From assembly GCA_034044135.1 (NCBI GenBank), contig CP139021.1, positions 4,913,635-4,977,634 on the forward strand: a DNA stretch of 64,000 bases, in the 5' to 3' direction. Made by a program: the position numbers and the translations under genes. Shown piece by piece: positions 9,170-20,403 of this stretch. Source of the stretch: Flammeovirgaceae bacterium SG7u.111. GTDB taxonomy: Bacteria; Bacteroidota; Bacteroidia; Cytophagales; Flammeovirgaceae. Position 1 is the stretch's first letter; every line of letters begins with the position of its first letter. The notes below the pieces were generated by a model, which was given only the letters and a program-made list of their open reading frames with translations, was not told where the DNA came from and made no database searches.

Positions 9170-10024
9170 CTACTGCTTATACCTCGCCACGTACCCGTAT
9201 TTCTTTCGGTATTTGTGCGGGGTTTCTTGTTTGAACTTGTTGAACTGTTTGTGGAAAAAAGGAAGGGATTCGTAGCCGCAGGCAAAACCTACTTGTGAAA
9301 CGGATCGATCTGTATCAATAAGCATTTTTGCCGCCATGTTGATGCGGTATTCGTTGAGGAAGGTGAAAAACGGTCGGCCCATCATCTTGCTGAAAAAGCG
9401 GGAAAAGGATTGCTCCGACATATTTACCAAGTCCGCCAGCTCTTTCACTTGGATTTTCCTATGGTATTCTGTTTCTACAAAGTCGTGGATTTTGCCCATT
9501 CTGTCCCCGTACTCGTTGGGCAAATCGTCTAAAAAGCTGGCATCTGAAAGCGTTTTGCTTGGAATTTCCGTCAAGTTCAGGAGCAGTTCCAGCAGTTTTA
9601 CATAAAGCTCGTATCCCGATAGGTGGTCAAGCTCTATGAGTTTGGGAATGAATTTCCCCACATGTTCTCCCTCGAAAATAATTCCTCTGGAAGCCTTTCG
9701 GAACATATCAAAGAGCGTTTCCATTTCCGGCACTTTGGCAAAAATGCCTTTGTTCCATTGCACCACCATCGAACGGGATGCGGTATTTTCCTCCCGATGA
9801 CTTTTCCAACAATGGGGAAGATTGGAGCGCAACAATACCAACTCTCCTTTTTCGTACGGTCCCACAAAATCGCCGATAAACTTCGTGCCGCTGCTTTCCA
9901 AAATATAGGTCAGCTCGTATTGGGGGTGGAAATGCCAAGGTGCGTCAAAATGGTCGTTGGAGTATTCAAACACCAAGATCGAATTTCTTTTCCCAAGCCT
10001 GATTGCTTCTAGTTCCGGCTTCAT
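9170..10024 (-). CDS. AraC-family transcriptional regulator with cupin sensor domain
   Basis: This 284-residue regulator has an N-terminal cupin-like sensing domain (about residues 20-110, with HFHPQYELTYI and LPHCWKSH) and a C-terminal double-HTH AraC domain (about 185-280). The recognition region has ELADLVNMSEQSFSRFFSKMMGRPF and the second helix pair GFACGYESLPFFHKQFNKFK, typical of the family. Such regulators commonly control sugar catabolism genes by sensing a metabolite. It is transcribed away from the P450 block across a 687-nt gap, so control of that block is a reasonable guess. The ATG at 10024 is the only plausible start. The effector is unknown. Confidence 0.9.
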   Translation of the reverse strand: MKPELEAIRLGKRNSILVFEYSNDHFDAPWHFHPQYELTYILESSGTKFIGDFVGPYEKGELVLLRSNLPHCWKSHREENTASRSMVVQWNKGIFAKVPEMETLFDMFRKASRGIIFEGEHVGKFIPKLIELDHLSGYELYVKLLELLLNLTEIPSKTLSDASFLDDLPNEYGDRMGKIHDFVETEYHRKIQVKELADLVNMSEQSFSRFFSKMMGRPFFTFLNEYRINMAAKMLIDTDRSVSQVGFACGYESLPFFHKQFNKFKQETPHKYRKKYGYVARYKQ

Positions 10025-10711: not shown

Positions 10712-11872
10712 ATGAAAAAAAGCACGCTATCAGACCCATTTAAAGAGGCCAGAGAGGGCAAAGGTATTGGCGAGATGAATGATCAGGATGATCCGGTAAA
10801 AATGGTACTTGGGCATAAAGATGTCCGCAAATGTGCTCATAACTGGAAAACCTTCCAGTCGGGCGGAGAAGAAATCGGTAGAATTGTTGTGCCTTCAGAA
10901 GTACATATTAGAGATGTTAGGCAAATCCCTTTTGAAGTTGACCCACCAGAACATAAAGGATACAGAGCGCTAGTTGAGCCATGGTTCAAGCGTCCATTAG
11001 AAGAAGAATATCAGTCAAAATTGACTGACATTGTAAATGGGGTGGTTGAGGAAGCCCTCACAAAAGGAAGCTTGGAAGTAGTTGAAGAATTCTCCTTGAA
11101 ACTACAATCCAGAGCGTTGACACTTTTACTAAACATTCCATATGAAGAGTCGGAGCTATGGATTTCGTGGGGCACGCACGTATTCAGAAGTGAAGACACT
11201 GCCTTGGATGGCGATAAAGCCAATATATTATACGATTACATTGATGCGCAAATAGACAAAGCGATAGCCAACCCTGGCGAAGACTTATACTCTGTATTGC
11301 TAGCTTCTGAAGCGAACGGTAAAAAAATGACCAAAGAAGAGGTGAAAGGCGTGTTGATATTAACTTTTGCCGGTGGTAGGGATACCGTTATTAATGCAGT
11401 AACCAATTCTATCGCCTATTTTGCAGACCATCCTCAGTCCTTACAACGCTTGCGCGATGAACCTGAAATAATGAACACGGCCATTGAGGAACTGATTCGT
11501 TATTTCTCACCCCTCACCCAAATGGGACGTGTAGCTACCGAAGACACGCAAGTTTGCGAACACGCTGTAAAAGCGCAAAGTAGAATATCCATGTGTTGGG
11601 CTTCTGCCAATAGAGATGAACGTGTTTTTGAAAAACCCGATGAAGTCGTTTTAGACCGAAAAGTAAACCCGCATGTAGGTTTTGGTTTTGGCACGCACAA
11701 CTGCTTAGGCGCAACTCATGCACGTCAAATAATGAAAATCTTATTGACAACCCTTACTGAAAAGGTAGGTTCTATGGAAATTCTCGATTGCAAAGAAAAC
11801 ATAGAAGACCTTGACGAATTTAAACGGAAAGTAGGCTTTGACAACATTCAAGTAAAATTCAATAGACTATAA
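10712..11872 (+). CDS. Cytochrome P450, predicted sugar O-demethylase
   Basis: This 386-residue soluble bacterial P450 has the I-helix oxygen-activation motif AGGRDT (near residue 220), the K-helix ExxR (EELIR) and the heme-binding loop FGFGTHNCLG with Cys331 as the axial thiolate. No membrane anchor is present. A [2Fe-2S] ferredoxin and a ferredoxin reductase follow in the same direction, giving a complete class I electron chain. Known: in marine Bacteroidota such as Zobellia and Formosa, P450/ferredoxin/reductase sets oxidatively demethylate 6-O-methyl-D-galactose from red-algal porphyran, giving galactose and formaldehyde. Inferred: this enzyme has a similar role, because formaldehyde- and formate-processing candidates follow. 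The actual methylated sugar cannot be read from sequence. Confidence 0.92.
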   Translation: MKKSTLSDPFKEAREGKGIGEMNDQDDPVKMVLGHKDVRKCAHNWKTFQSGGEEIGRIVVPSEVHIRDVRQIPFEVDPPEHKGYRALVEPWFKRPLEEEYQSKLTDIVNGVVEEALTKGSLEVVEEFSLKLQSRALTLLLNIPYEESELWISWGTHVFRSEDTALDGDKANILYDYIDAQIDKAIANPGEDLYSVLLASEANGKKMTKEEVKGVLILTFAGGRDTVINAVTNSIAYFADHPQSLQRLRDEPEIMNTAIEELIRYFSPLTQMGRVATEDTQVCEHAVKAQSRISMCWASANRDERVFEKPDEVVLDRKVNPHVGFGFGTHNCLGATHARQIMKILLTTLTEKVGSMEILDCKENIEDLDEFKRKVGFDNIQVKFNRL

Positions 11873-11929
11873 ACTAAATAATCGAGTGTTTTAATAGTGC
11901 TCATTATTTTGCTTTTCAGATATTACTGA

Positions 11930-12070
11930 CGGTTGCTAGCGGTCCGCCGCTGCGGTTGCGGGTTACGGGTTACGGGTTACGGGTTTTAATAATGCTGGTT
12001 ATAACTAGGTAATAAGTTGATTGACTGTTTTTTTTAAAACTAGCAACCAGTAACGAGTAACAAGCAACAA
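11930..12070. repeat. Inverted pair of 7-nt-period repeats (family C)
   Basis: The left arm has GGGTTAC repeated three times exactly at 11960-11980, preceded by CGGTTGC and followed by a partial unit. The right arm at 12043-12070 has four heptads of the form GYAACNA (for example GTAACGA), the reverse complement of the left pattern. The pair fills most of the 288-nt gap between the P450 and ferredoxin genes. A short one-armed relative (TGGTTGC, TAGTTAC) is at 20836-20849. Confidence 0.75.
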
Positions 12071-12160
12071 TTGAGCATAGTAGTAAATCATCAACAAAGG
12101 CTTTATTTAGAAAGTGCAAAAACTTAGTTTACCGAGTACTAAACATAAATCAATAGAAAA

Positions 12161-12469
12161 ATGGCAAAAATAACATTCATAACCAGCAACAACAAAACCA
12201 TAGAAACTGAAGCAACTTCTGGAAGCGTAATGGAAGTAGCGGTTAAAAACAAAGTAAAAGGAATTGATGGCGATTGTGGTGGCGTTTGCTCTTGTGCTAC
12301 CTGTCATGTACATGTAAAGGAGGAATTCTGGAATGCTGTTGGAGAACCAAGCGAACTTGAAGCGGATATGCTGGAGTTTGACGATAATGTAAGTGAATAT
12401 AGCCGTTTAGCATGCCAACTTAAAGTTGATGAAGTTCCTGACGGGTTGATTTTAAAAGTTGCAAAGTAA
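12161..12469 (+). CDS. [2Fe-2S] ferredoxin, putidaredoxin/adrenodoxin type
   Basis: This 102-residue cytosolic electron carrier has the cluster ligands Cys39, Cys45 and Cys48 (CGGVCSCATC, Cx5Cx2C spacing) and Cys85 (ACQLKV), as in adrenodoxin-like ferredoxins. An extra Cys43 lies inside the loop. The HVHV segment after the third ligand is typical of P450 partners. It lies between the P450 and the reductase genes, and its stop codon is 4 nt before the reductase ATG. Its inferred role is one-electron transfer from the reductase to the P450. Confidence 0.94.
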   Translation: MAKITFITSNNKTIETEATSGSVMEVAVKNKVKGIDGDCGGVCSCATCHVHVKEEFWNAVGEPSELEADMLEFDDNVSEYSRLACQLKVDEVPDGLILKVAK

Positions 12470-12473
12470 TCAC

Positions 12474-13718
12474 ATGACAGTAACAAAGAATCAAGTATGC
12501 GCTGTTGTAGGTGCAAGTCATGCTGGAATAAACTTAGCTTTTTCCCTACGAAGAGAAGGCTGGGAAGGGGAAATCATTCTTTATGATATTGATAAAGAAT
12601 TCCCTTATCATCGTCCTCCATTGTCAAAAGCCTATCTGACAAGTGAAGAAGGTACGGAGCAAAGTTTATTGTTCCCAAAGGAAAACTATGACGATGAAAA
12701 CATCACGCTAAAACTGGGTATTGCTGTAAAAGGCATCGACCGTAGCAGCAAAATCATTTCATTAAGTGATAATTCGACCCAATCTTATGATAAGTTGGTT
12801 ATTGCCACTGGTGCACGTCCGTTCATACCGCCAATAAAGGGGATAGATGCCGCCCAAAGCGTGTTTCCAATGCGTACTGCCGAAGACTCGGTAAACATTA
12901 GAAAAGCATTTAACTCTTCCGATAAAAAGCGTGTGGTAGTGATTGGCGGTGGCTACATTGGGTTAGAAACCGCAGCGTCCCTTAAAAAGTTAGGCGCTCA
13001 AGTGGTTGTGCTGGAGCGTGAAGAACGTATTTTAGCTAGAGTCACCGCTCCAGTAATGTCTGAATTCTTTACAGGATTGCATCAAAACAATGGGGTTGAA
13101 ATATGCACTAGCAAAAATGTGATTGCTATTGAAAAGCAAGGCGATTGTAACGTAGTAGTTTGTGACGATGGCACTAGGTATGAAGCCGATGTAATTGTAG
13201 TTGGTGTAGGTATTAGAATCAATACCGAATTGGCACAAGAGGCAGGCTTAACCATTGAAAATGGTATTAAGGTAGATGAAACCGCCCGAACCAATGATGA
13301 AAACATTTATGCCATTGGGGACTGCACCTATCATTACAATCCTCATTACAAAACCAATGTACGATTAGAATCTGTTCAGAACGCTGTAGACCAAGCAAAA
13401 ACTGCTGCAAAGGCAATTTGCGGACAAGAGGGTGTAGTGTATGATAGCATCCCTTGGTTTTGGTCGGACCAGTTTGATGTAAAGCTTCAAATAGTCGGGC
13501 TTTCAAATGGGTACAATGACATTGTTGTGAGAAAAGAAGAAGCCGAAAATAGTTTCTCCACTTGGTACTTTAAAGACGATGAGTTACTCGCTGTTGATGC
13601 CGTAAATTTTGCAAAAGCCTATATGTTGGGCACACGCTTTATAAAAAGTGGTCAAGTGCTCGATAAGAATAAACTGGCAGACACAGCCATTCCTTTCAAA
13701 CCAAACAATTTTGTATAA
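12474..13718 (+). CDS. FAD-dependent NAD(P)H ferredoxin reductase
   Basis: This 414-residue flavoprotein is of the putidaredoxin-reductase type. It has an N-terminal FAD-binding fold (VVGASHAGINLAFSLR), a central NAD(P)H-binding fold (VIGGGYIGLETAASLKKLG) followed by an acidic strand end (VLERE) that favours NADH, and the second FAD motif NIYAIGDC. It would pass electrons from NAD(P)H to the adjacent ferredoxin for the P450. ATG 12474 is chosen: a TTG 15 nt earlier would overlap the ferredoxin gene, while ATG sits 4 nt after its stop. The next gene begins 15 nt downstream, consistent with an operon. Confidence 0.94.
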   Translation: MTVTKNQVCAVVGASHAGINLAFSLRREGWEGEIILYDIDKEFPYHRPPLSKAYLTSEEGTEQSLLFPKENYDDENITLKLGIAVKGIDRSSKIISLSDNSTQSYDKLVIATGARPFIPPIKGIDAAQSVFPMRTAEDSVNIRKAFNSSDKKRVVVIGGGYIGLETAASLKKLGAQVVVLEREERILARVTAPVMSEFFTGLHQNNGVEICTSKNVIAIEKQGDCNVVVCDDGTRYEADVIVVGVGIRINTELAQEAGLTIENGIKVDETARTNDENIYAIGDCTYHYNPHYKTNVRLESVQNAVDQAKTAAKAICGQEGVVYDSIPWFWSDQFDVKLQIVGLSNGYNDIVVRKEEAENSFSTWYFKDDELLAVDAVNFAKAYMLGTRFIKSGQVLDKNKLADTAIPFKPNNFV

Positions 13719-13733
13719 AAAAGACCTTAAAAA

Positions 13734-14852
13734 ATGCCCATACAATCTAAATCAGCAATAGCTACTGGAGACGGAAAGTTCATAATTGACACCGTTACCA
13801 TTGCAGACCCCAAAGAAGACGAGATTATAGTAAAAGTAAAAGCAGCTGGGCTTTGCCATACCGACCACGATTCTTTAAACTGGGGAAAGCCCATCGTCCT
13901 TGGACATGAAGGAGCTGGAATAGTTGAAAAAGTGGGTAGTGCAGTCACAGATTTCAACCCTGGAGATGCCGTGATCTTGAACTGGGCAACTCCTTGCATG
14001 AAATGTTTCCAATGCCAAGAAGGCAACCAGCACATCTGCGAAAACAACTCACCTGTAACTGCTGGAGGCAATGGTTTTACCCCTGGCCATGCACATTTGG
14101 AAGGAACAAAGTGGAATAATAAAGCCATTGAACGCTCATTCAACATTGGTACTATTGCCGAATATGCTTTGGTAAAAGAATCGGCTTGTGTGAAGTTGGA
14201 AAGCAAAGACCTCTCTATGGCCTCAGCAAGTATCATTAGCTGCGGAGTGATGACGGGCTATGGCTCGGTAGTCAACTCGGCACAACTGACGGCAGGAAGC
14301 TCGGCAGTGGTATTGGGAACAGGAGGTGTAGGGCTAAACGTGATCCAAGGAGCAAGAATCTCTGGTGCAGCCAAAATCATTGCCATAGACATCAACGAAA
14401 AGCGATTGGAAATGGCGAAGCAGTTTGGCGCTACCCACACCATTTTGGCTGATAGAGACGATAAAGGCTTGATGCAAGCAGCGGAAAAAGTAAAAGAAAT
14501 GACAGGAGGAAGGGGCGCTGACTATGCCTTTGAATGTACCGCCGTTCCGGCTTTGGGCGCTGCACCGCTTGCCATGGTCAGAAATGCAGGAACTGCCGTG
14601 CAAGTGAGTGGTATCGAAGAGACCATCACTATCGATATGAACCTCTTCGAATGGGATAAAATCTATATCAACCCCTTGTATGGAAAATGTCGCCCACAGA
14701 TAGATTTCCCCAAACTAGTAGACCTCTACGACAAAGGCGAGCTCATGCTAGACGAGATGATTACCCGAACCTATCCTTTGGAAAGCCTCCAGCAAGCTTT
14801 TGACGATATGTTGGCTGGAAAGAATGCGAAAGGTGTAATTGTGTTTGAGTAG
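13734..14852 (+). CDS. Zinc-dependent alcohol dehydrogenase, candidate formaldehyde dehydrogenase
   Basis: This 372-residue medium-chain dehydrogenase is close to class III (formaldehyde-active) alcohol dehydrogenases. The catalytic zinc ligands are Cys41 (GLCHTD), His58 with Glu59 (GHEGAG) and Cys170 (ISCGVMTG). The structural zinc ligands are Cys88, Cys91, Cys94 and Cys102. The nucleotide fold has GTGGVGLNVIQGA and an acidic strand end (IAIDINEKR), which points to NAD. It lies directly after the P450 electron chain. Inferred role: oxidation of formaldehyde (free or as a thiol adduct) made by O-demethylation. The thiol cofactor, if any, is not shown by the window. Oxidation or reduction of another alcohol or aldehyde remains possible. 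Confidence 0.9.
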   Translation: MPIQSKSAIATGDGKFIIDTVTIADPKEDEIIVKVKAAGLCHTDHDSLNWGKPIVLGHEGAGIVEKVGSAVTDFNPGDAVILNWATPCMKCFQCQEGNQHICENNSPVTAGGNGFTPGHAHLEGTKWNNKAIERSFNIGTIAEYALVKESACVKLESKDLSMASASIISCGVMTGYGSVVNSAQLTAGSSAVVLGTGGVGLNVIQGARISGAAKIIAIDINEKRLEMAKQFGATHTILADRDDKGLMQAAEKVKEMTGGRGADYAFECTAVPALGAAPLAMVRNAGTAVQVSGIEETITIDMNLFEWDKIYINPLYGKCRPQIDFPKLVDLYDKGELMLDEMITRTYPLESLQQAFDDMLAGKNAKGVIVFE

Positions 14853-14877
14853 TCTTTTTTTGAAAATATATCAGAGA

Positions 14878-15103
14878 TTATCACGGTTTTTGACAGTAAA
14901 GGCATTTCCAACTATCAATAACGCACATAGTTTCGGCTGAAGCCGAATAGGTATGGTGTTATTCAACGGGCTTTAGCCCGTTGCTAGTGATAAAAGAATC
15001 AATAGGCGGGGCTTTTAAGCCCCGTTTGGAAGTAAAAACGATGTTGGCTTTAGCCTAAACTAACTTTTAGCCCAAAAAATCTATACAAATCAAACCGTGA
15101 TAA
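14878..15103. repeat. Palindromic family A cluster enclosed by a 12-bp inverted repeat
   Basis: TTATCACGGTTT (14878-14889) and its exact reverse complement AAACCGTGATAA (15092-15103) enclose a family A element (14929-15061). Inside are CGGCTGAAGCCG, a near-perfect AACGGGCTTTAGCCCGTT (14965-14982), CGGGGCTTTTAAGCCCCG (15007-15024) and an inverted end GGCTTTAGCCTAAACT (15046-15061). The block fills most of the 340-nt space between the dehydrogenase and esterase genes and could form strong RNA hairpins in a read-through transcript. Confidence 0.85.
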
Positions 15104-15192
15104 ACCCTATTGAAAAAGATAAAAACTTGTAACTCGCAGGGCGAACCGTTGAAACCTGCAACCGTCTGCAAAAGCTAAAAATTAAAATACCA

Positions 15193-15996
15193 ATGACTAA
15201 ATCAATATTCAACACAACAGAGCTTTCCAATCCTCAATTTGAAATGGATGGGCTTCGATTCATCACCGTGAAATCGAAAAACCTGAAGGGCAGAGGCGAT
15301 ATTTGTGTATTTGTCCCCAAAGGAGAACAGTTGGAAAACCTACCCATAGTCACCCTCTTACATGGCGTGTACGGAAGTGCGTGGGTCTGGGCTTTTTTGG
15401 GTGGGGCGCATAAAACAGCTCAACGCTTGATTGAAGAAGGTAAAATCAAACCGATGGTATTAGCGATGCCTTCCGATGGTCTTTGGGGCGATGGATCGGG
15501 CTATATGGCACACGACGGCAAAGACTTTGAAAAATGGATTGCCGAAGATGTACCCACTGCCGTGAAGGAAAATATTCCTCAAGTTTCGGAAAAGTCTCAA
15601 CTATTTATCTCAGGGCTTTCCATGGGAGGCTTTGGCGCACTGAAAGTTGGGTCGAAGTATGGAAAGCAATATGCAGGCATTTCCGCCCACAGTTCCATCA
15701 CCGAAGTGGGACAAATGGAATTGTTTGTTGAAGAGCCCTTGTCGGCTTACAAGCAAAAAGTGAGGGCAAACGAAGATGCCTTTACCAGCATTTTGGAAAA
15801 CAGGGATAGCCTCCCTCCTCTCCGCTTCGATTGCGGCAATACCGATGAGCTGATCGATTACAACAGAACCTTGCACCAGCAACTAGTGGAAAAGAAAATA
15901 GACCATAGCTACGAAGAATTTGAAGGTGGACACCAATGGGAATATTGGCAAGAACATTTGGTGGATACGCTGTTGTTTTTTGATAAGATTAAGTGA
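15193..15996 (+). CDS. Alpha/beta hydrolase, esterase D / S-formylthiol hydrolase-like
   Basis: This 267-residue alpha/beta hydrolase resembles the esterase D group, which contains S-formylglutathione hydrolases. The nucleophile is Ser143 in GLSMGGFGA. An oxyanion region is visible in LLHGVYGSAWVW, and the C-terminal His lies in EGGHQWEYW; the acid is probably the Asp in CGNTDELID. No signal peptide is seen, so it is cytosolic. Placed between the alcohol dehydrogenase and a formate-dehydrogenase-like gene, it could hydrolyse a formyl-thiol intermediate to formate. A role as a generic carbohydrate or acyl esterase is the main alternative. Confidence 0.85.
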   Translation: MTKSIFNTTELSNPQFEMDGLRFITVKSKNLKGRGDICVFVPKGEQLENLPIVTLLHGVYGSAWVWAFLGGAHKTAQRLIEEGKIKPMVLAMPSDGLWGDGSGYMAHDGKDFEKWIAEDVPTAVKENIPQVSEKSQLFISGLSMGGFGALKVGSKYGKQYAGISAHSSITEVGQMELFVEEPLSAYKQKVRANEDAFTSILENRDSLPPLRFDCGNTDELIDYNRTLHQQLVEKKIDHSYEEFEGGHQWEYWQEHLVDTLLFFDKIK

Positions 15997-16060
15997 TGTG
16001 CTAATTATCTAATGTGCCGATATGCCGATGAAGGAATTATCCGATCATATAATGATAAAG
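15997..16060 (+). repeat. Degenerate 8-nt-period tandem repeat (family D)
   Basis: Eight consecutive octamers begin immediately after the esterase stop. They mostly follow a TNTNNNRA pattern, for example TGTGCTAA, TGTGCCGA, TATGCCGA and TTATCCGA. No inverted partner arm was found before the next gene. Confidence 0.6.
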
Positions 16061-16149
16061 TGCTGTTTCAATCTATTTCCAAATACTTTTGCGAGCTTCG
16101 CTAATTGTTCGATTTGCTAAAAGATAAACCCATTTATAACCTCTCCTTC

Positions 16150-18450
16150 ATGACTACCAAAACCAAAAGAAACATCTCTATAGTAGGTCCAGAAGAATTC
16201 ACCGACCTGAAGCTGACTCCACCAAAAGCTTATGCGGCTGGCTTGCCCGCAGTAAAAGTAGCCCTTGACCATGCCATGAAGGAAATGGGGTTAACAAAAT
16301 CGGTGGCTACACTCTCCAAGCTTAACCAAAAAGGTGGCTTCGACTGCCCCGGATGCGCCTGGCCCGACCCAGAAAAAAGGTCATCGTTGGGTGAGTTTTG
16401 TGAAAATGGGGTAAAGGCTATATCCGAAGAGGCGACAAACAAACGAGTTACCCCAGCCTTTTTCAAGCAGCATTCCATCACGGAACTTTCCAATTGGACG
16501 GATTATGAAATAGGGAAAAGCGGAAGGCTAACTGAGCCTATGATTTTGAAGCCGGGCAGCCATCATTATGAACCCATTTCTTGGGAAGACTCCTTTGAAC
16601 TAATCGGGGATTCCCTGCGCTCATTAGCCGACCCCAACGAAGCCGTGTTTTATACATCGGGCAGGTCGAGCAACGAGGCTGCTTTTCTGTACGGGCTGTT
16701 TATCCGAGCCTACGGAACGAACAACATGCCCGACTGCTCCAATATGTGCCACGAGTCCAGCGGAGCTGCCTTGGGAGAGACCTTGGGAATAGGAAAAGGC
16801 TCGGTCACCTTGGAAGATTTTTCGGATGCTGAAGTGGTGATGGTGATTGGGCAAAACCCGGGAACCAACCACCCCAGAATGCTTTCCGCTTTGCAGAAAT
16901 GCAAAGAAAATGGTGGCAAAGTAGTAACGGTCAACCCTTTGGAAGAAGCTGGTTTGGTTCGCTTCAAAAACCCGCAAGAAGTCAAAGGAGTTATAGGCAA
17001 TGGAGCTTCCATAACCGACATTTTCCTTCAGGTAAAGATCAACCAAGATGTGGCTTTACTCAAGCTGATCATCAAAAAACTGGCGAAGCTCGATGCTGAA
17101 AAAGGAGGCGTTTTTGACCATGAGTTTATCCAAAAAAATACCCAAGGAGCAGAAGCGTTATTGGCTGATTTGGAACAGTACTCGGAAGAAGAATTGCTCC
17201 AACAAACAGGCATCAGCTCAGGTAAAGTAGAAGAAACCGTTGCCCTCCTCGCCCAAAAGAAACGCATTATCATCTGCTGGGCAATGGGGCTTACACAGCA
17301 CAAAAACGGCGTTAATAATATAAAAGAATGCGTCAACCTACTTTTGCTCAAAGGAAGCATCGGAAAAAAAGGAGCTGGCACTTGCCCTGTCCGTGGGCAC
17401 AGCAATGTTCAGGGCGACCGCACCGTGGGAATTACCCACCATGCCTCGCCAAAGCTTATTGATGCTTATAAAAAAGTGTTCAATTTCGACCCTCCTACCG
17501 AAGAAGGGCTGGATGTGGCGCACTGCGTCAAAGCCATGCACGAGGGCAAAGCTAAGGTATTCATCGCCCTTGGCGGGAATTTCCTATCGGCAGCTTCCGA
17601 CACTATTTATACGGGCGAAGCACTGCAAAACTGCCAACTGACCGTTTCTATCAGCACCAAACTTAACCGAACGCATGTAGTACCGGGGCAAACTTCCCTG
17701 ATCTTGCCTACGCTTGGTCGCACCGAGCAAGATGCCAAAAATGGGCAAAATAGGTTTGTAACAGTCGAAAACAGCATGGGCAAGGTGCATCAGTCGCAGG
17801 GAAGGCTTACTCCCGCATCCGAAAAGCTAATGAGCGAACCAGAGATAGTGACAGGCATAGCCAATGCGTATTTCCAAGGCAAATCCAACATAGACTGGCT
17901 ACAACTAGGAAGCGACTACGACCTTGTAAGGGAAAAAATCTCCCAAGTGTTCCATGGTTTTGACAACTACAGCGAGCGCTCCAAAAAAGGGGGCTTTGAT
18001 CTGCCCAACCATGCCCGAATGGGCCATTTTTCAAAACTGCCCGGTGGCAAGGCACACATTTCTGTTTGTCCCCTTCCACAACACGAGCTTAGCCAATCGG
18101 ATTTCCTGCTGATGACCATCCGCTCGCACGACCAGTTCAACACGACCATCTATGGCTTAAACGATCGCTACCGAGGGATTTATAATGAAAGAAGAGTACT
18201 GCTAATGAACGAGAAAGATACCCAAAAACTCGGGCTGAAAAAGCTCGACAAAGTGGATTTGGTGAGCAACTACGACAGCAAAGAACGCCGAGCCAAAAAC
18301 TTCCTCATCATCCCCTACAGCATCCCCGAGGGCAACCTAGCTGCCTACTTCCCCGAAACTAATGTACTCATTCCCTACGACCAGTTTGCCGACAGGAGCA
18401 ACACGCCTATTAGTAAATCTGTGAGGGTAAAGGTGGAGAAGGTGGAGTAA
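16150..18450 (+). CDS. FdhF/YdeP-family molybdopterin oxidoreductase, formate-dehydrogenase-like
   Basis: This protein of about 766 residues belongs to the FdhF/YdeP-type molybdopterin oxidoreductases. It has the family's N-terminal CPGCAWPDP motif (near residue 65). Molybdenum-cofactor folds follow (VFYTSGRSSNEAA, NMCHESSGAALGE, VIGQNPGTNHPRM), with a C-terminal molydopterin dinucleotide domain (about 640-760). No Tat signal is seen, so it is cytosolic. YdeP-like proteins are formate-dehydrogenase homologues of mostly unproven activity. Following formaldehyde-processing candidates, a role in oxidising formate to CO2 is plausible. ATG 16150 is preferred over an in-frame TTG at 16105, which would add an unrelated leader. 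Maturation and electron-acceptor partners are not in the window. Confidence 0.87.
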   Translation: MTTKTKRNISIVGPEEFTDLKLTPPKAYAAGLPAVKVALDHAMKEMGLTKSVATLSKLNQKGGFDCPGCAWPDPEKRSSLGEFCENGVKAISEEATNKRVTPAFFKQHSITELSNWTDYEIGKSGRLTEPMILKPGSHHYEPISWEDSFELIGDSLRSLADPNEAVFYTSGRSSNEAAFLYGLFIRAYGTNNMPDCSNMCHESSGAALGETLGIGKGSVTLEDFSDAEVVMVIGQNPGTNHPRMLSALQKCKENGGKVVTVNPLEEAGLVRFKNPQEVKGVIGNGASITDIFLQVKINQDVALLKLIIKKLAKLDAEKGGVFDHEFIQKNTQGAEALLADLEQYSEEELLQQTGISSGKVEETVALLAQKKRIIICWAMGLTQHKNGVNNIKECVNLLLLKGSIGKKGAGTCPVRGHSNVQGDRTVGITHHASPKLIDAYKKVFNFDPPTEEGLDVAHCVKAMHEGKAKVFIALGGNFLSAASDTIYTGEALQNCQLTVSISTKLNRTHVVPGQTSLILPTLGRTEQDAKNGQNRFVTVENSMGKVHQSQGRLTPASEKLMSEPEIVTGIANAYFQGKSNIDWLQLGSDYDLVREKISQVFHGFDNYSERSKKGGFDLPNHARMGHFSKLPGGKAHISVCPLPQHELSQSDFLLMTIRSHDQFNTTIYGLNDRYRGIYNERRVLLMNEKDTQKLGLKKLDKVDLVSNYDSKERRAKNFLIIPYSIPEGNLAAYFPETNVLIPYDQFADRSNTPISKSVRVKVEKVE

Positions 18451-18524
18451 CCCAAGCTTTCCCAAGACTTATAGCAATAGTCTCTTTCATCTATATTTTC
18501 CAATAAAATTAAGAAAACACTTGC

Positions 18525-18566
18525 GTAACCGATTAGTTACACTTATATTCGTAACCAATCAGTTAC
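18525..18566. promoter_or_regulatory. Two ArsR-type operator palindromes
   Basis: GTAACCGATTAGTTAC (18525-18540) and GTAACCAATCAGTTAC (18551-18566) are two copies of the inverted repeat GTAAC-N6-GTTAC, with centres 26 bp apart. They end 8 nt before the ArsR-type repressor ATG. Position and symmetry suggest autoregulation. Confidence 0.75.
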
Positions 18567-18574
18567 ATAAAATA

Positions 18575-18898
18575 ATGAGAAGAGATGTTTTTCAAGCAAT
18601 AGCAGATCCGGTAAGGAGGGATATTATTGAATTGCTCGCAAGTGAGCCACTTAGTATAAATGCCATCGCCGAAAAATTTGATGTAAGCAGGCCTGCTATT
18701 TCAAAGCACCTGAAAATATTAAAAGAGTGTGAAATCATCGAAATTGACCAGAGAGGTAGGGAGCGGTTTTGCCAAATCCAACCCAAAAATCTAATCCCTG
18801 CTTTCCTGTGGATAGAACAATACAGAGGCCTGTGGGAAGAAAGGCTCGATTCATTTGAAGAGTATTTAATGAAATTAAAAAATCAAAAAGATAAATAA
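18575..18898 (+). CDS. ArsR/SdpR-type winged-helix repressor
   Basis: This 107-residue winged-helix regulator opens with the family's usual RDVFQAIADPVRRDIIELLA. It has a recognition helix in NAIAEKFDVSRPAISKHLKILKE and a wing (IIEIDQRGRERFCQI). There are no metal-binding Cys/His sites of the ELxCxC type, so it looks like the non-metal SdpR/YgaV-like group that is often paired with SRPBCC proteins. ATG 18575 is chosen over an in-frame TTG at 18521, because the TTG start would place the two operator palindromes inside the coding region. The next gene starts 2 nt after its stop, so the two are surely co-transcribed. Confidence 0.92.
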   Translation: MRRDVFQAIADPVRRDIIELLASEPLSINAIAEKFDVSRPAISKHLKILKECEIIEIDQRGRERFCQIQPKNLIPAFLWIEQYRGLWEERLDSFEEYLMKLKNQKDK

Positions 18899-18899
18899 T

Positions 18900-19349
18900 A
18901 TGAGCGATTTGAAAGACCGTACATTGACCCTCGAAAGAACATTCAATGCACCCCTAGCCTTAGTATGGGAAGCATGGACACAACCCGAACATATTGCACA
19001 GTGGTGGAGACCAAAAGGAATGGAAACCAAAGTCATCACACATGAATTTAAAGTGGGTGGCAAATGGGAATATGTGATGGCCATGCCCGATGGAAAAAAT
19101 TTCATTGCCGAGGGCGAATACACAGAAATAGTGGAACTGGCAAAAATAGTCTCATCCGCTAACTTCAAACCAATGACCGAAGGAGTTACACTACATGCCG
19201 CATTTGAGAAACAGGGAGAAAAAACGCTTTTCACCTTCAGTGTGGTTCACCCAACAGCGGAGTATTGCCAGCAACAAGAAAAAATGGGCTTCTACAATGG
19301 CTGGGGTTCTACGTTTGATAGATTAGCAGATTATTTAAACGCTTCATGA
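18900..19349 (+). CDS. SRPBCC (AHSA1/activator of Hsp90 ATPase-like) protein
   Basis: This 149-residue protein of the START/SRPBCC fold, AHSA1-like branch, has the family landmarks LERTFNAPLALVWEAWTQPEHIAQWWRPKG, GGKWEYVMAMPDG and the C-terminal GFYNGWGSTFDRLADYL helix. The fold has a large hydrophobic cavity for a small ligand. No enzymatic function is assigned to this branch. Its start 2 nt after the ArsR-type gene makes a classic ArsR-SRPBCC pair, so it is probably controlled through the operators upstream of the repressor. Confidence 0.92.
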   Translation: MSDLKDRTLTLERTFNAPLALVWEAWTQPEHIAQWWRPKGMETKVITHEFKVGGKWEYVMAMPDGKNFIAEGEYTEIVELAKIVSSANFKPMTEGVTLHAAFEKQGEKTLFTFSVVHPTAEYCQQQEKMGFYNGWGSTFDRLADYLNAS

Positions 19350-19397: not shown

Positions 19398-19420
19398 TAG
19401 GTGGGGTATTTATGCCCCGC
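19398..19420 (+). repeat. Solitary right-half hairpin of palindromic family A
   Basis: TAGGTGGGGTATTTATGCCCCGC matches the right internal hairpin of the elements at 19471-19725 and 20163-20403. It stands alone 50 nt after the SRPBCC gene. Confidence 0.7.
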
Positions 19421-19470
19421 TCCTATCCATACATGCCAAACTATAAGCTATCATTGCTCAGTATATCATT

Positions 19471-19725
19471 TAGTTTAGGCTAAAGCCGATGTGTATATCA
19501 ATCATTGCGGGGCTTGAAAACCCCGCCTAGTGAAAAATCAATTTACATGATTGATAAAAGGCAGAGCAAGAAACAGTACCCACGAATAGCGCCTTTTCCA
19601 ATTAAATCATCTTGCCTAATCAAATGCAATTCCCTACATTGTAAAAACATACCACCGTTATAATTAGGCGGGGTATTTATGCCCCGTAATATCCAAAACC
19701 CTAAATCGGGCTTTAGCCCAAACTA
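19471..19725 (+). repeat. Palindromic family A element, copy upstream of the transposase
   Basis: This 255-bp element begins TAGTTTAGGCTAAAGCC and ends GGGCTTTAGCCCAAACTA, so its termini are inverted. Inside the left end is the hairpin GCGGGG...CCCCGC followed by CTAGTGAAAAATCA. Inside the right end is TAGGCGGGGTATTTATGCC. The middle shares ACATGATTGATAA and a shared AAAAACATACCACC-type stretch with the downstream copy. It ends 5 nt before the transposase ATG. Confidence 0.88.
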
Positions 19726-19730
19726 AAAAG

Positions 19731-20165
19731 ATGTCATTCATAAAGGTTTATGTACACTTCGTATGGTCTACTAAAAACAGGATGCCGTTATTGACCAATA
19801 ACATCAGGCAAGATGTATTTAAACATATCAAAGAAAATGCTCAAACCAAAAATATCTTTATTGATTTCATCAATGGGTTTACAGACCATGTACATTGTCT
19901 AGTTTCCCTCAACGATGATATCAGCATTAGAAAAACTGCCACTCTTATAAAAGGTGAATCTTCACATTGGATCAATAAACAAAAGCTCACAAAAACCAAG
20001 TTCCAATGGCAAGACGAGTACCTCGCCATCGGTGTGGATGATGAAAAATTACCAATTGTAAGGAAGTACATTGCAAACCAAGAAGAGCATCATAAGAATG
20101 TTACCTTTGCACAAGAGTACGATCAGTTTATTAGGAGATATGGCTTTGATGTCCTCAAAAAATAG
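19731..20165 (+). mobile_element. IS200-like Y1 transposase, REP-associated type
   Basis: This 144-residue HUH/Y1 transposase shows the HUH pair in DHVHCLV (His53 and His55) and the catalytic Tyr113 in RKYIANQEEHH with the helper Gln117. The WSTKNRMP segment near the N terminus is also typical of the IS200 group. Known: single-domain relatives (REP-associated tyrosine transposases) act on short palindromes next to their gene. The coding region is exactly framed by two copies of element family A: the ATG is 5 nt after one, and the TAG stop codon is the first three bases of the other. The copies found elsewhere (7242, 14929, 19398) suggest that it mobilises, or once mobilised, these elements. 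Confidence 0.92.
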
Positions 20166-20403
20166 TTTGGGCTAAAGCTGATGTATATAACATCCGTTGC
20201 GGGGCTTAAAAACCCCGCCTAGTGAAAAATCATTTTACATGATTGATAAGGGATAAAACAAGGAACTGTACCACAAACATTATCTTTTTATTGCCAAACC
20301 AACCCCTTCTCCTTAAATTGAAAAAACATACCACCATTTATAACTAGACGGGTATTTATGCCCCGCAATTCTCAACGCAATCAATGGGCTTTAGCCCAAA
20401 CTA
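20163..20403 (+). repeat. Palindromic family A element, copy downstream of the transposase
   Basis: This 241-bp element is in direct orientation relative to the copy at 19471-19725. It begins TAGTTTGGGCTAAAGC, has the hairpin GCGGGGCTTAAAAACCCCGC and CTAGTGAAAAATCA, shares ACATGATTGATAA, then GTATTTATGCCCCGC, and ends GGGCTTTAGCCCAAACTA. Its first three bases serve as the transposase stop codon. Confidence 0.88.

Follow-up and report, generated by a model that had tools for sequence, protein, structure and literature searches.

An FdhF/YdeP-family molybdoenzyme gene adjoining a predicted 6-O-methyl-D-galactose demethylase unit in a Flammeovirgaceae bacterium

The 64,000-nucleotide stretch of Flammeovirgaceae bacterium SG7u.111 analyzed here (the window; G000:C1:4913635-4977634 of a 7.7-Mb genome) carries, at positions 10712-18450 of its plus strand, consecutive genes for a cytochrome P450 (CYP), a ferredoxin, a ferredoxin reductase, a zinc alcohol dehydrogenase (ADH), an esterase and a molybdoenzyme, as established from open reading frames (ORFs) and domain models. 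The bacterium is marine and seems to subsist on the sugars of seaweed. The five genes from P450 to esterase are an already known unit, and sequence comparison indicates that the block is almost certainly a 6-O-methyl-D-galactose (G6Me) demethylase unit, the P450 of which is predicted to release formaldehyde. The part that looks new is the extension of this unit by the sixth gene, which encodes a member of the FdhF/YdeP family. The explanation given a modest preference here is that of a G6Me-use unit joined by a molybdoenzyme that disposes of the one-carbon (C1) product. The P450, fed by ferredoxin and reductase, would demethylate free G6Me to galactose and formaldehyde, a reaction published for the enzymes of Zobellia and Formosa, and the ADH and the esterase would be the known auxiliary pair. 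The cytosolic FdhF/YdeP molybdoenzyme, which would have been added in the family of the window genome and in a few other lineages, would most likely dispose of the C1 product by converting formate to CO2, and would be matured without FdhD. The features considered are as follows.

9170..10024, minus strand: AraC-family regulator (profile matches), its N-terminal part weakly matching a cupin model; divergent from the P450 gene
10712..11872, plus strand: cytochrome P450 of the 6-O-methyl-D-galactose demethylase type, with the haem motif FGFGTHNCLG
12161..12469, plus strand: [2Fe-2S] ferredoxin (Fer2)
12474..13718, plus strand: ferredoxin reductase (Pyr_redox_2 and Reductase_C)
13734..14852, plus strand: zinc alcohol dehydrogenase of the FoADH/ZoADH type
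15006..15024, no strand assigned: palindromic REP-like repeat between ADH and esterase
15193..15996, plus strand: serine esterase with the PF00756 fold, with Ser143 (in GLSMGG) and His247 invariant
16150..18450, plus strand: FdhF/YdeP-family molybdoenzyme (TIGR01701)

The order of these six genes on a single strand had been claimed in the initial annotation, and all of the ORFs were confirmed, with Pfam and NCBIfam models supporting every label except that of an 'esterase D-like' hydrolase. Its reading of the P450 as a sugar demethylase was likewise borne out, by the similarity to the structure 6g5o and by the P450 tree. The only PDB match at E < 1e-100 was 6g5o, which scored 664 bits vs 158 for the next PDB match and shared 76.2% identity (294/386) with the window P450. 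This structure is 97.7% identical to a Zobellia uliginosa P450 and would correspond to the solved Zobellia galactanivorans CYP of PMC10033563, a study that reported the demethylation of G6Me by CYP and its redox partners and described the grouping of CYP and redox partners with esterase and ADH as recurrent and conserved in marine bacteria. As in 6g5o-type demethylases, genes for the P450's own ferredoxin and reductase adjoin it in the window. In a tree restricted to close relatives (at least 70% identity) and without an outgroup, the window P450 grouped with nine rows from Seonamhaeicola, Tamlana, Algibacter and other Flavobacteriaceae (support 91, or 97 on adding two Marinilabiliaceae); this and the other trees were quick IQ-TREE runs with SH-aLRT support only.

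The conservation of the block was assessed in the best 80 of 122 related P450 loci, 11 of which ended at contig ends. The ferredoxin and reductase genes were present in 80/80, the ADH in 64/80 and the esterase in 64/80, and the complete series P450-ferredoxin-reductase-ADH-esterase occurred in the same order on a single strand in 36 loci. An AraC-type match was found in 52 of the loci, at 58-66% identity in 21 and more distant in the remainder. Given this recurrence in 80 related P450 loci, the association of the genes is not due to chance. An ArsR-AHSA1 pair at 18521-19349 was ruled out as part of the unit, being above threshold in none of the 80. The reductase may start at the TTG at 12459, as listed, or at the ATG at 12474; for the molybdoenzyme, listed from the TTG at 16105, the ATG at 16150 is likelier because the homologue alignments begin about there. 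The intergenic gaps measure 288 bases between P450 and ferredoxin, 340 between ADH and esterase and, counted from the ATG at 16150, 153 between esterase and molybdoenzyme. Promoter-like sites (16 vs 19.7 in shuffles) and terminator-like sites (13 vs 11.1) were at chance level.

The molybdoenzyme exceeded the cut-off of the FdhF/YdeP model TIGR01701 (870.7 vs 582.15 bits) and remained under those of the YdeP equivalog NF007406 (650 vs 1473 bits) and of the Fdh-alpha model TIGR01591 (240 vs 666 bits). Cys200-His201 and Arg415 were invariant in 54/54 aligned rows, the former aligning with the X-His (X read as selenocysteine) of formate dehydrogenase 9t1s and the latter with its RG motif. Three cysteines of the Fe-S motif at the N-terminus (Cys66, Cys69 and Cys84) were invariant in the same alignment. 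The AlphaFold model, built on 7 rows, had a pLDDT of 51 and was not used. In Pseudomonas putida, the FdhF/YdeP members PP_4596 and PP_0256-fdhD were reported to be formate dehydrogenases by expression and deletion, and for PP_0256-fdhD this role was additionally confirmed by complementation (PMC10308882).

The adjacency of an FdhF/YdeP enzyme to a demethylase P450, also pointed out in the initial annotation, was found to recur in other lineages, since such a gene was present in 8/80 P450 loci: four from Flammeovirga, three from Aquimarina and one from Psychrosphaera. In Flammeovirga, ADH, esterase and molybdoenzyme genes stand in a single row transcribed divergently from the P450; in Aquimarina, the molybdoenzyme follows ADH-esterase-P450-ferredoxin-reductase with an AraC fragment between; and in Psychrosphaera B3R10, a gammaproteobacterium, a gene for a 253-aa FdhD is followed in a row by FdhF/YdeP and P450 (L077:6608-9643), the FdhF/YdeP protein being more distant (43% identical) and encoded directly upstream of the P450. 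In a tree of 54 hand-picked molybdoenzymes, from which five identical rows had been removed before the count, the linked state required three changes, and the starred branches forced three origins.

Co-occurrence across genomes pointed in the same direction. In genus g3, taken as Flammeovirga and belonging to the same family as the window genome, a TIGR01701 protein was encoded in 7/7 P450-positive genomes and in 0/2 P450-negative ones, and the two genes lay at most 10 kb apart in 6/7, being divided over two contigs in the seventh. In a sample of 192 genomes of the order, TIGR01701 was over cut-off in 9/9 P450-positive vs 55/183 P450-negative genomes (p = 0.00003), eight of the nine being the window genome and seven of one genus; among 199 genomes of Flavobacteriaceae, the family of the linked Aquimarina genome G027, the counts were 15/17 vs 74/182 (p = 0.00015). 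Both p values ignore kinship and genome size. Altogether, 42 of 50 P450-positive genomes had a protein over this cut-off, or 33/41 when the window genome and eight purposely included linked genomes were set apart. No paper linking FdhF/YdeP to porphyran or G6Me was found in the openly licensed PMC literature, a scope outside which lay Brott 2022 and the supplements of PMC10033563, where FdhF/YdeP may appear among the gene neighbourhoods of Fig. S2; in the main text of the latter article, 'formate dehydrogenase' occurs only in a reference title.

The descent of the genes is also informative. The window esterase and molybdoenzyme each grouped with Flammeovirga (support 99 each), the placement of the window ADH was undecided, and the P450 had its relatives among the Flavobacteriaceae; judged from these trees, the window cluster is a mosaic. 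The molybdoenzyme module therefore accompanies a P450 of different descent, and modules that keep company despite different histories would be expected to share a task. Taken together, a functional tie between the molybdoenzyme and the demethylase unit is considered probable.

Several observations weigh against this reading. The linkage is the exception among the P450 loci (8/80), and in the 15 Flavobacteriaceae genomes carrying both genes, these were close on one contig only in G027; similarly, the P450-positive genome G189, from the window's own family, has its FdhF/YdeP gene on another contig. Two FdhF/YdeP subfamilies were distinguished, with a border set by eye (59% / 58% identity, 1051 / 996 bits), and that of the window occurred in 7/17 P450-positive and also in 33/182 P450-negative Flavobacteriaceae; therefore, the subfamily is not dedicated to G6Me, and its specificity for P450-positive genomes was ruled out (33 of 40 Flavobacteriaceae carriers lacked the P450). 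Moreover, among 40 stretches around FdhF/YdeP genes, the 32 chosen as unlinked copies had varying neighbours, and in four loci (L220, L221, L229 and L232) the gene lay near a NirB-like reductase and nitrate-assimilation-looking genes, named by eye. These surroundings, the low proportion of linked loci and the 153-base gap that follows the esterase would fit a unit ending at the esterase, with the molybdoenzyme gene as a neighbour that came to lie there and serves stress responses or nitrogen metabolism. This alternative is nevertheless considered doubtful in view of the tree, on which the linkage arose three times (a rough Poisson estimate for three chance linkages gave 0.0003 to 0.001 at assumed rates of 0.12 and 0.2 and random placement), and of the co-presence and co-absence of P450 and molybdoenzyme in genus g3.

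The substrate of the molybdoenzyme is a separate matter, on which the distribution of FdhD bears directly and in part unfavourably to formate. At E 0.001, FdhD (PF02634) was not found in the window genome, which is 98% complete. Among 19 genomes searched, it was present in three (Psychrosphaera G045 and genomes from two further genera in the family of the window genome) and was not found in the nine g3 genomes, in Aquimarina G027 or in Zobellia G016. In the 199 Flavobacteriaceae genomes, FdhD occurred in 33; it was found with the window subfamily (59-70% identical) in 0/40 genomes and with the sister subfamily in 13/49, where fdhD and the molybdoenzyme gene lay no more than ~500 bases apart in 13/13. 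Across the Flavobacteriaceae carriers of FdhF/YdeP, FdhD was not found in 76/89, and therefore most such enzymes mature otherwise or are not formate dehydrogenases. The Fe-S motif is a further difficulty: that of formate dehydrogenases presumably comprises four cysteines at the N-terminus, and the third of these is absent from the window enzyme. Formate dehydrogenases were described as requiring a sulfido ligand inserted by an FdhD-type protein, with sulfuration by chemical means as an option in vitro (PMC12140954).

Consequently, the absence of FdhD alongside this subfamily leaves either an FdhD-independent formate oxidase or an enzyme for another substrate. In the second case, the molybdoenzyme would belong to the unit and act on, for example, an aldehyde adduct at an oxo rather than sulfido Mo site, as the 0/40 vs 13/49 distribution of FdhD and the altered Fe-S motif might suggest. 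This is judged to be unlikely, since the Cys-His and Arg signature of formate dehydrogenases was invariant throughout the alignment, the P. putida members are formate dehydrogenases, and a P. putida fdhD mutant was reported to retain CO2 release from formate (PMC10308882). Formate is accordingly proposed as the substrate only tentatively.

The ADH and the esterase had been read in the initial annotation as the middle steps of a linear pathway from demethylation to CO2. The window ADH shares 82.2% identity with 8h2a (305/371) and 76.6% with 8h2b (285/372) and lies beside a P450 as FoADH and ZoADH do; 8h2b, which is 98% identical to a Zobellia uliginosa ADH, was taken as ZoADH and 8h2a as FoADH. 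According to PMC10033563, FoADH and ZoADH showed no activity on free formaldehyde or as dismutases, and were inactive on formaldehyde combined with glutathione, mycothiol, bacillithiol, cysteine, CoA or ergothioneine, or with either of two aromatic thiols; their active site is narrow, and they chiefly reduce aldehydes. The dehydrogenase claim, for which the lack of formaldehyde activity had been named beforehand as refuting, thus fails on the published assays of its close homologues. The ADH also fell below the curated formaldehyde-dehydrogenase cut-offs (TIGR02818, 221/544 bits; TIGR03451, 252/513; TIGR02819, 74/637) and missed that of its best curated model, the NDMA-dependent ADH TIGR03989 (289 vs 440 bits).

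Similarly, the description of the hydrolase as 'esterase D-like' was not upheld, as it scored 33.9 bits in the S-formylglutathione hydrolase model TIGR02821 (cut-off 281.7). The top fold matches of its AlphaFold model (48 rows, pLDDT 94.8) were the feruloyl esterases 5vol and 7xrv, and in the fold search feruloyl esterases (CE1, 23-25% identity) preceded S-formylglutathione hydrolases (15-19%) by E-value and identity, while the TM-scores of the two groups overlapped (0.74-0.78 and 0.70-0.80, respectively). No signal peptide was seen in the esterase on inspection by eye. The linear route could be rescued if the ADH oxidized an S-hydroxymethyl-thiol formed from formaldehyde and a marine thiol, the esterase freed formate and the molybdoenzyme oxidized it, for which the single ADH-esterase-FdhF/YdeP row of Flammeovirga, the dramatic growth defect of a Zobellia ADH knockout on G6Me, the unidentified thiol left possible by the authors of PMC10033563 and the equal TM-score proximity of the esterase to both groups can be adduced; set against the inactivity of FoADH and ZoADH on formaldehyde and the esterase scores, it is unlikely. 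Of the pathway as first proposed, the P450 step stands and the last step perhaps does, and published assays and family scores are unfavourable to the two middle steps.

The fate of formaldehyde was also considered in terms of the ribulose monophosphate (RuMP) pathway, the sink named for Zobellia (Brott 2022, via PMC10033563). The RuMP hexulose-6-phosphate synthase (TIGR03128) was not found in the window genome (best 25.4 bits, cut-off 200), and therefore the route named for Zobellia was not seen here. Among the 50 P450-positive genomes, the synthase was over cut-off in two, and two more scored 143 bits. As a further point unfavourable to the proposed role of the molybdoenzyme, all four of these genomes also carry FdhF/YdeP; therefore, the two routes are not exclusive, and their mutual replacement was ruled out. 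The eight P450-positive genomes without FdhF/YdeP over cut-off, among which were one split gene and one contig-end fragment, had no RuMP synthase match above 36 bits, and therefore another formaldehyde sink probably exists too.

As to the source of the substrate, the minus strand of the window from 23845 to 64000 carries eight sulfatases, GH95, GH29, GH97 and GH43 enzymes and lyase-like proteins, with no SusC/SusD among the 23 minus-strand proteins scanned. The tie to this locus suggested at first was set aside, as it lies on the strand opposite to the demethylase block, with unrelated genes between and no link seen, and a porphyranase-type (GH86-like) locus is located ~250 kb away. The window genome encodes three proteins carrying PF18206, a porphyranase domain, and at G000:C1:4660500-4680000 (L243) there are a PF18040/PF18206 protein, SusC- and SusD-like proteins, a GH2 and dehydrogenases. 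This GH2 is 62% identical to one flanking ADH-esterase-P450 in an Aquimarina locus (L048), and the candidate porphyran/agar locus L243, ~250 kb upstream, is a likelier partner of the demethylase unit than the sulfatase locus.

REP-like palindromes were observed at 15006-15024, 19401-19690 and 20199-20218, the copy in the ADH-esterase gap resembling those that flank the IS200-type transposase gene (Y1_Tnp, ORF 19731-20165). The repeat had eight matches with at most three mismatches on the two strands, with palindromes counting twice, vs 0.01 expected.

G6Me, a sugar of red algae, can account for up to 28% of porphyran (PMC10033563). Each G6Me demethylated would yield one formaldehyde, and a RuMP synthase match was present in only 4/50 demethylase-bearing genomes; the recurrently linked formate-dehydrogenase-like gene is thus a concrete candidate for C1 disposal. 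A bolder generalization, which is regarded as improbable, is that this widespread FdhF/YdeP subfamily is an FdhD-free oxidase of formate or C1 adducts, and that sugar-demethylase clusters have enlisted it and its FdhD-bearing relative on three or more occasions; waste carbon would there leave as CO2, and the electrons would repay the NADH spent on demethylation. If true, this would be a self-financing demethylation unit. The absence of FdhD poses a question of maturation for a large family of molybdoenzymes.

Compared with known systems, the window shares with the G6Me cluster of Zobellia galactanivorans and Formosa agariphila (PMC10033563) the gene set of CYP, ferredoxin, reductase, ADH and esterase, its P450 and ADH having 76% and 77-82% identity, respectively, with the solved proteins, and four Zobellia loci present the same P450-ferredoxin-reductase-ADH-esterase order and divergent AraC gene. 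Unlike that cluster, the window carries the extra FdhF/YdeP gene, and its porphyranase-type locus is distant rather than adjacent. RuMP fixation in Zobellia (Brott 2022, via PMC10033563) is a sink for the same formaldehyde, and its synthase is a further difference, having gone undetected in the window genome. As for the added gene, PP_0256 and PP_4596 of P. putida and Fdh4A of Methylobacterium (PMC10308882) are soluble catalytic FdhF/YdeP proteins, to which the window enzyme is likened by family name and not by alignment; PP_0256 is co-transcribed with fdhD, the counterpart of which was not found in the window genome.

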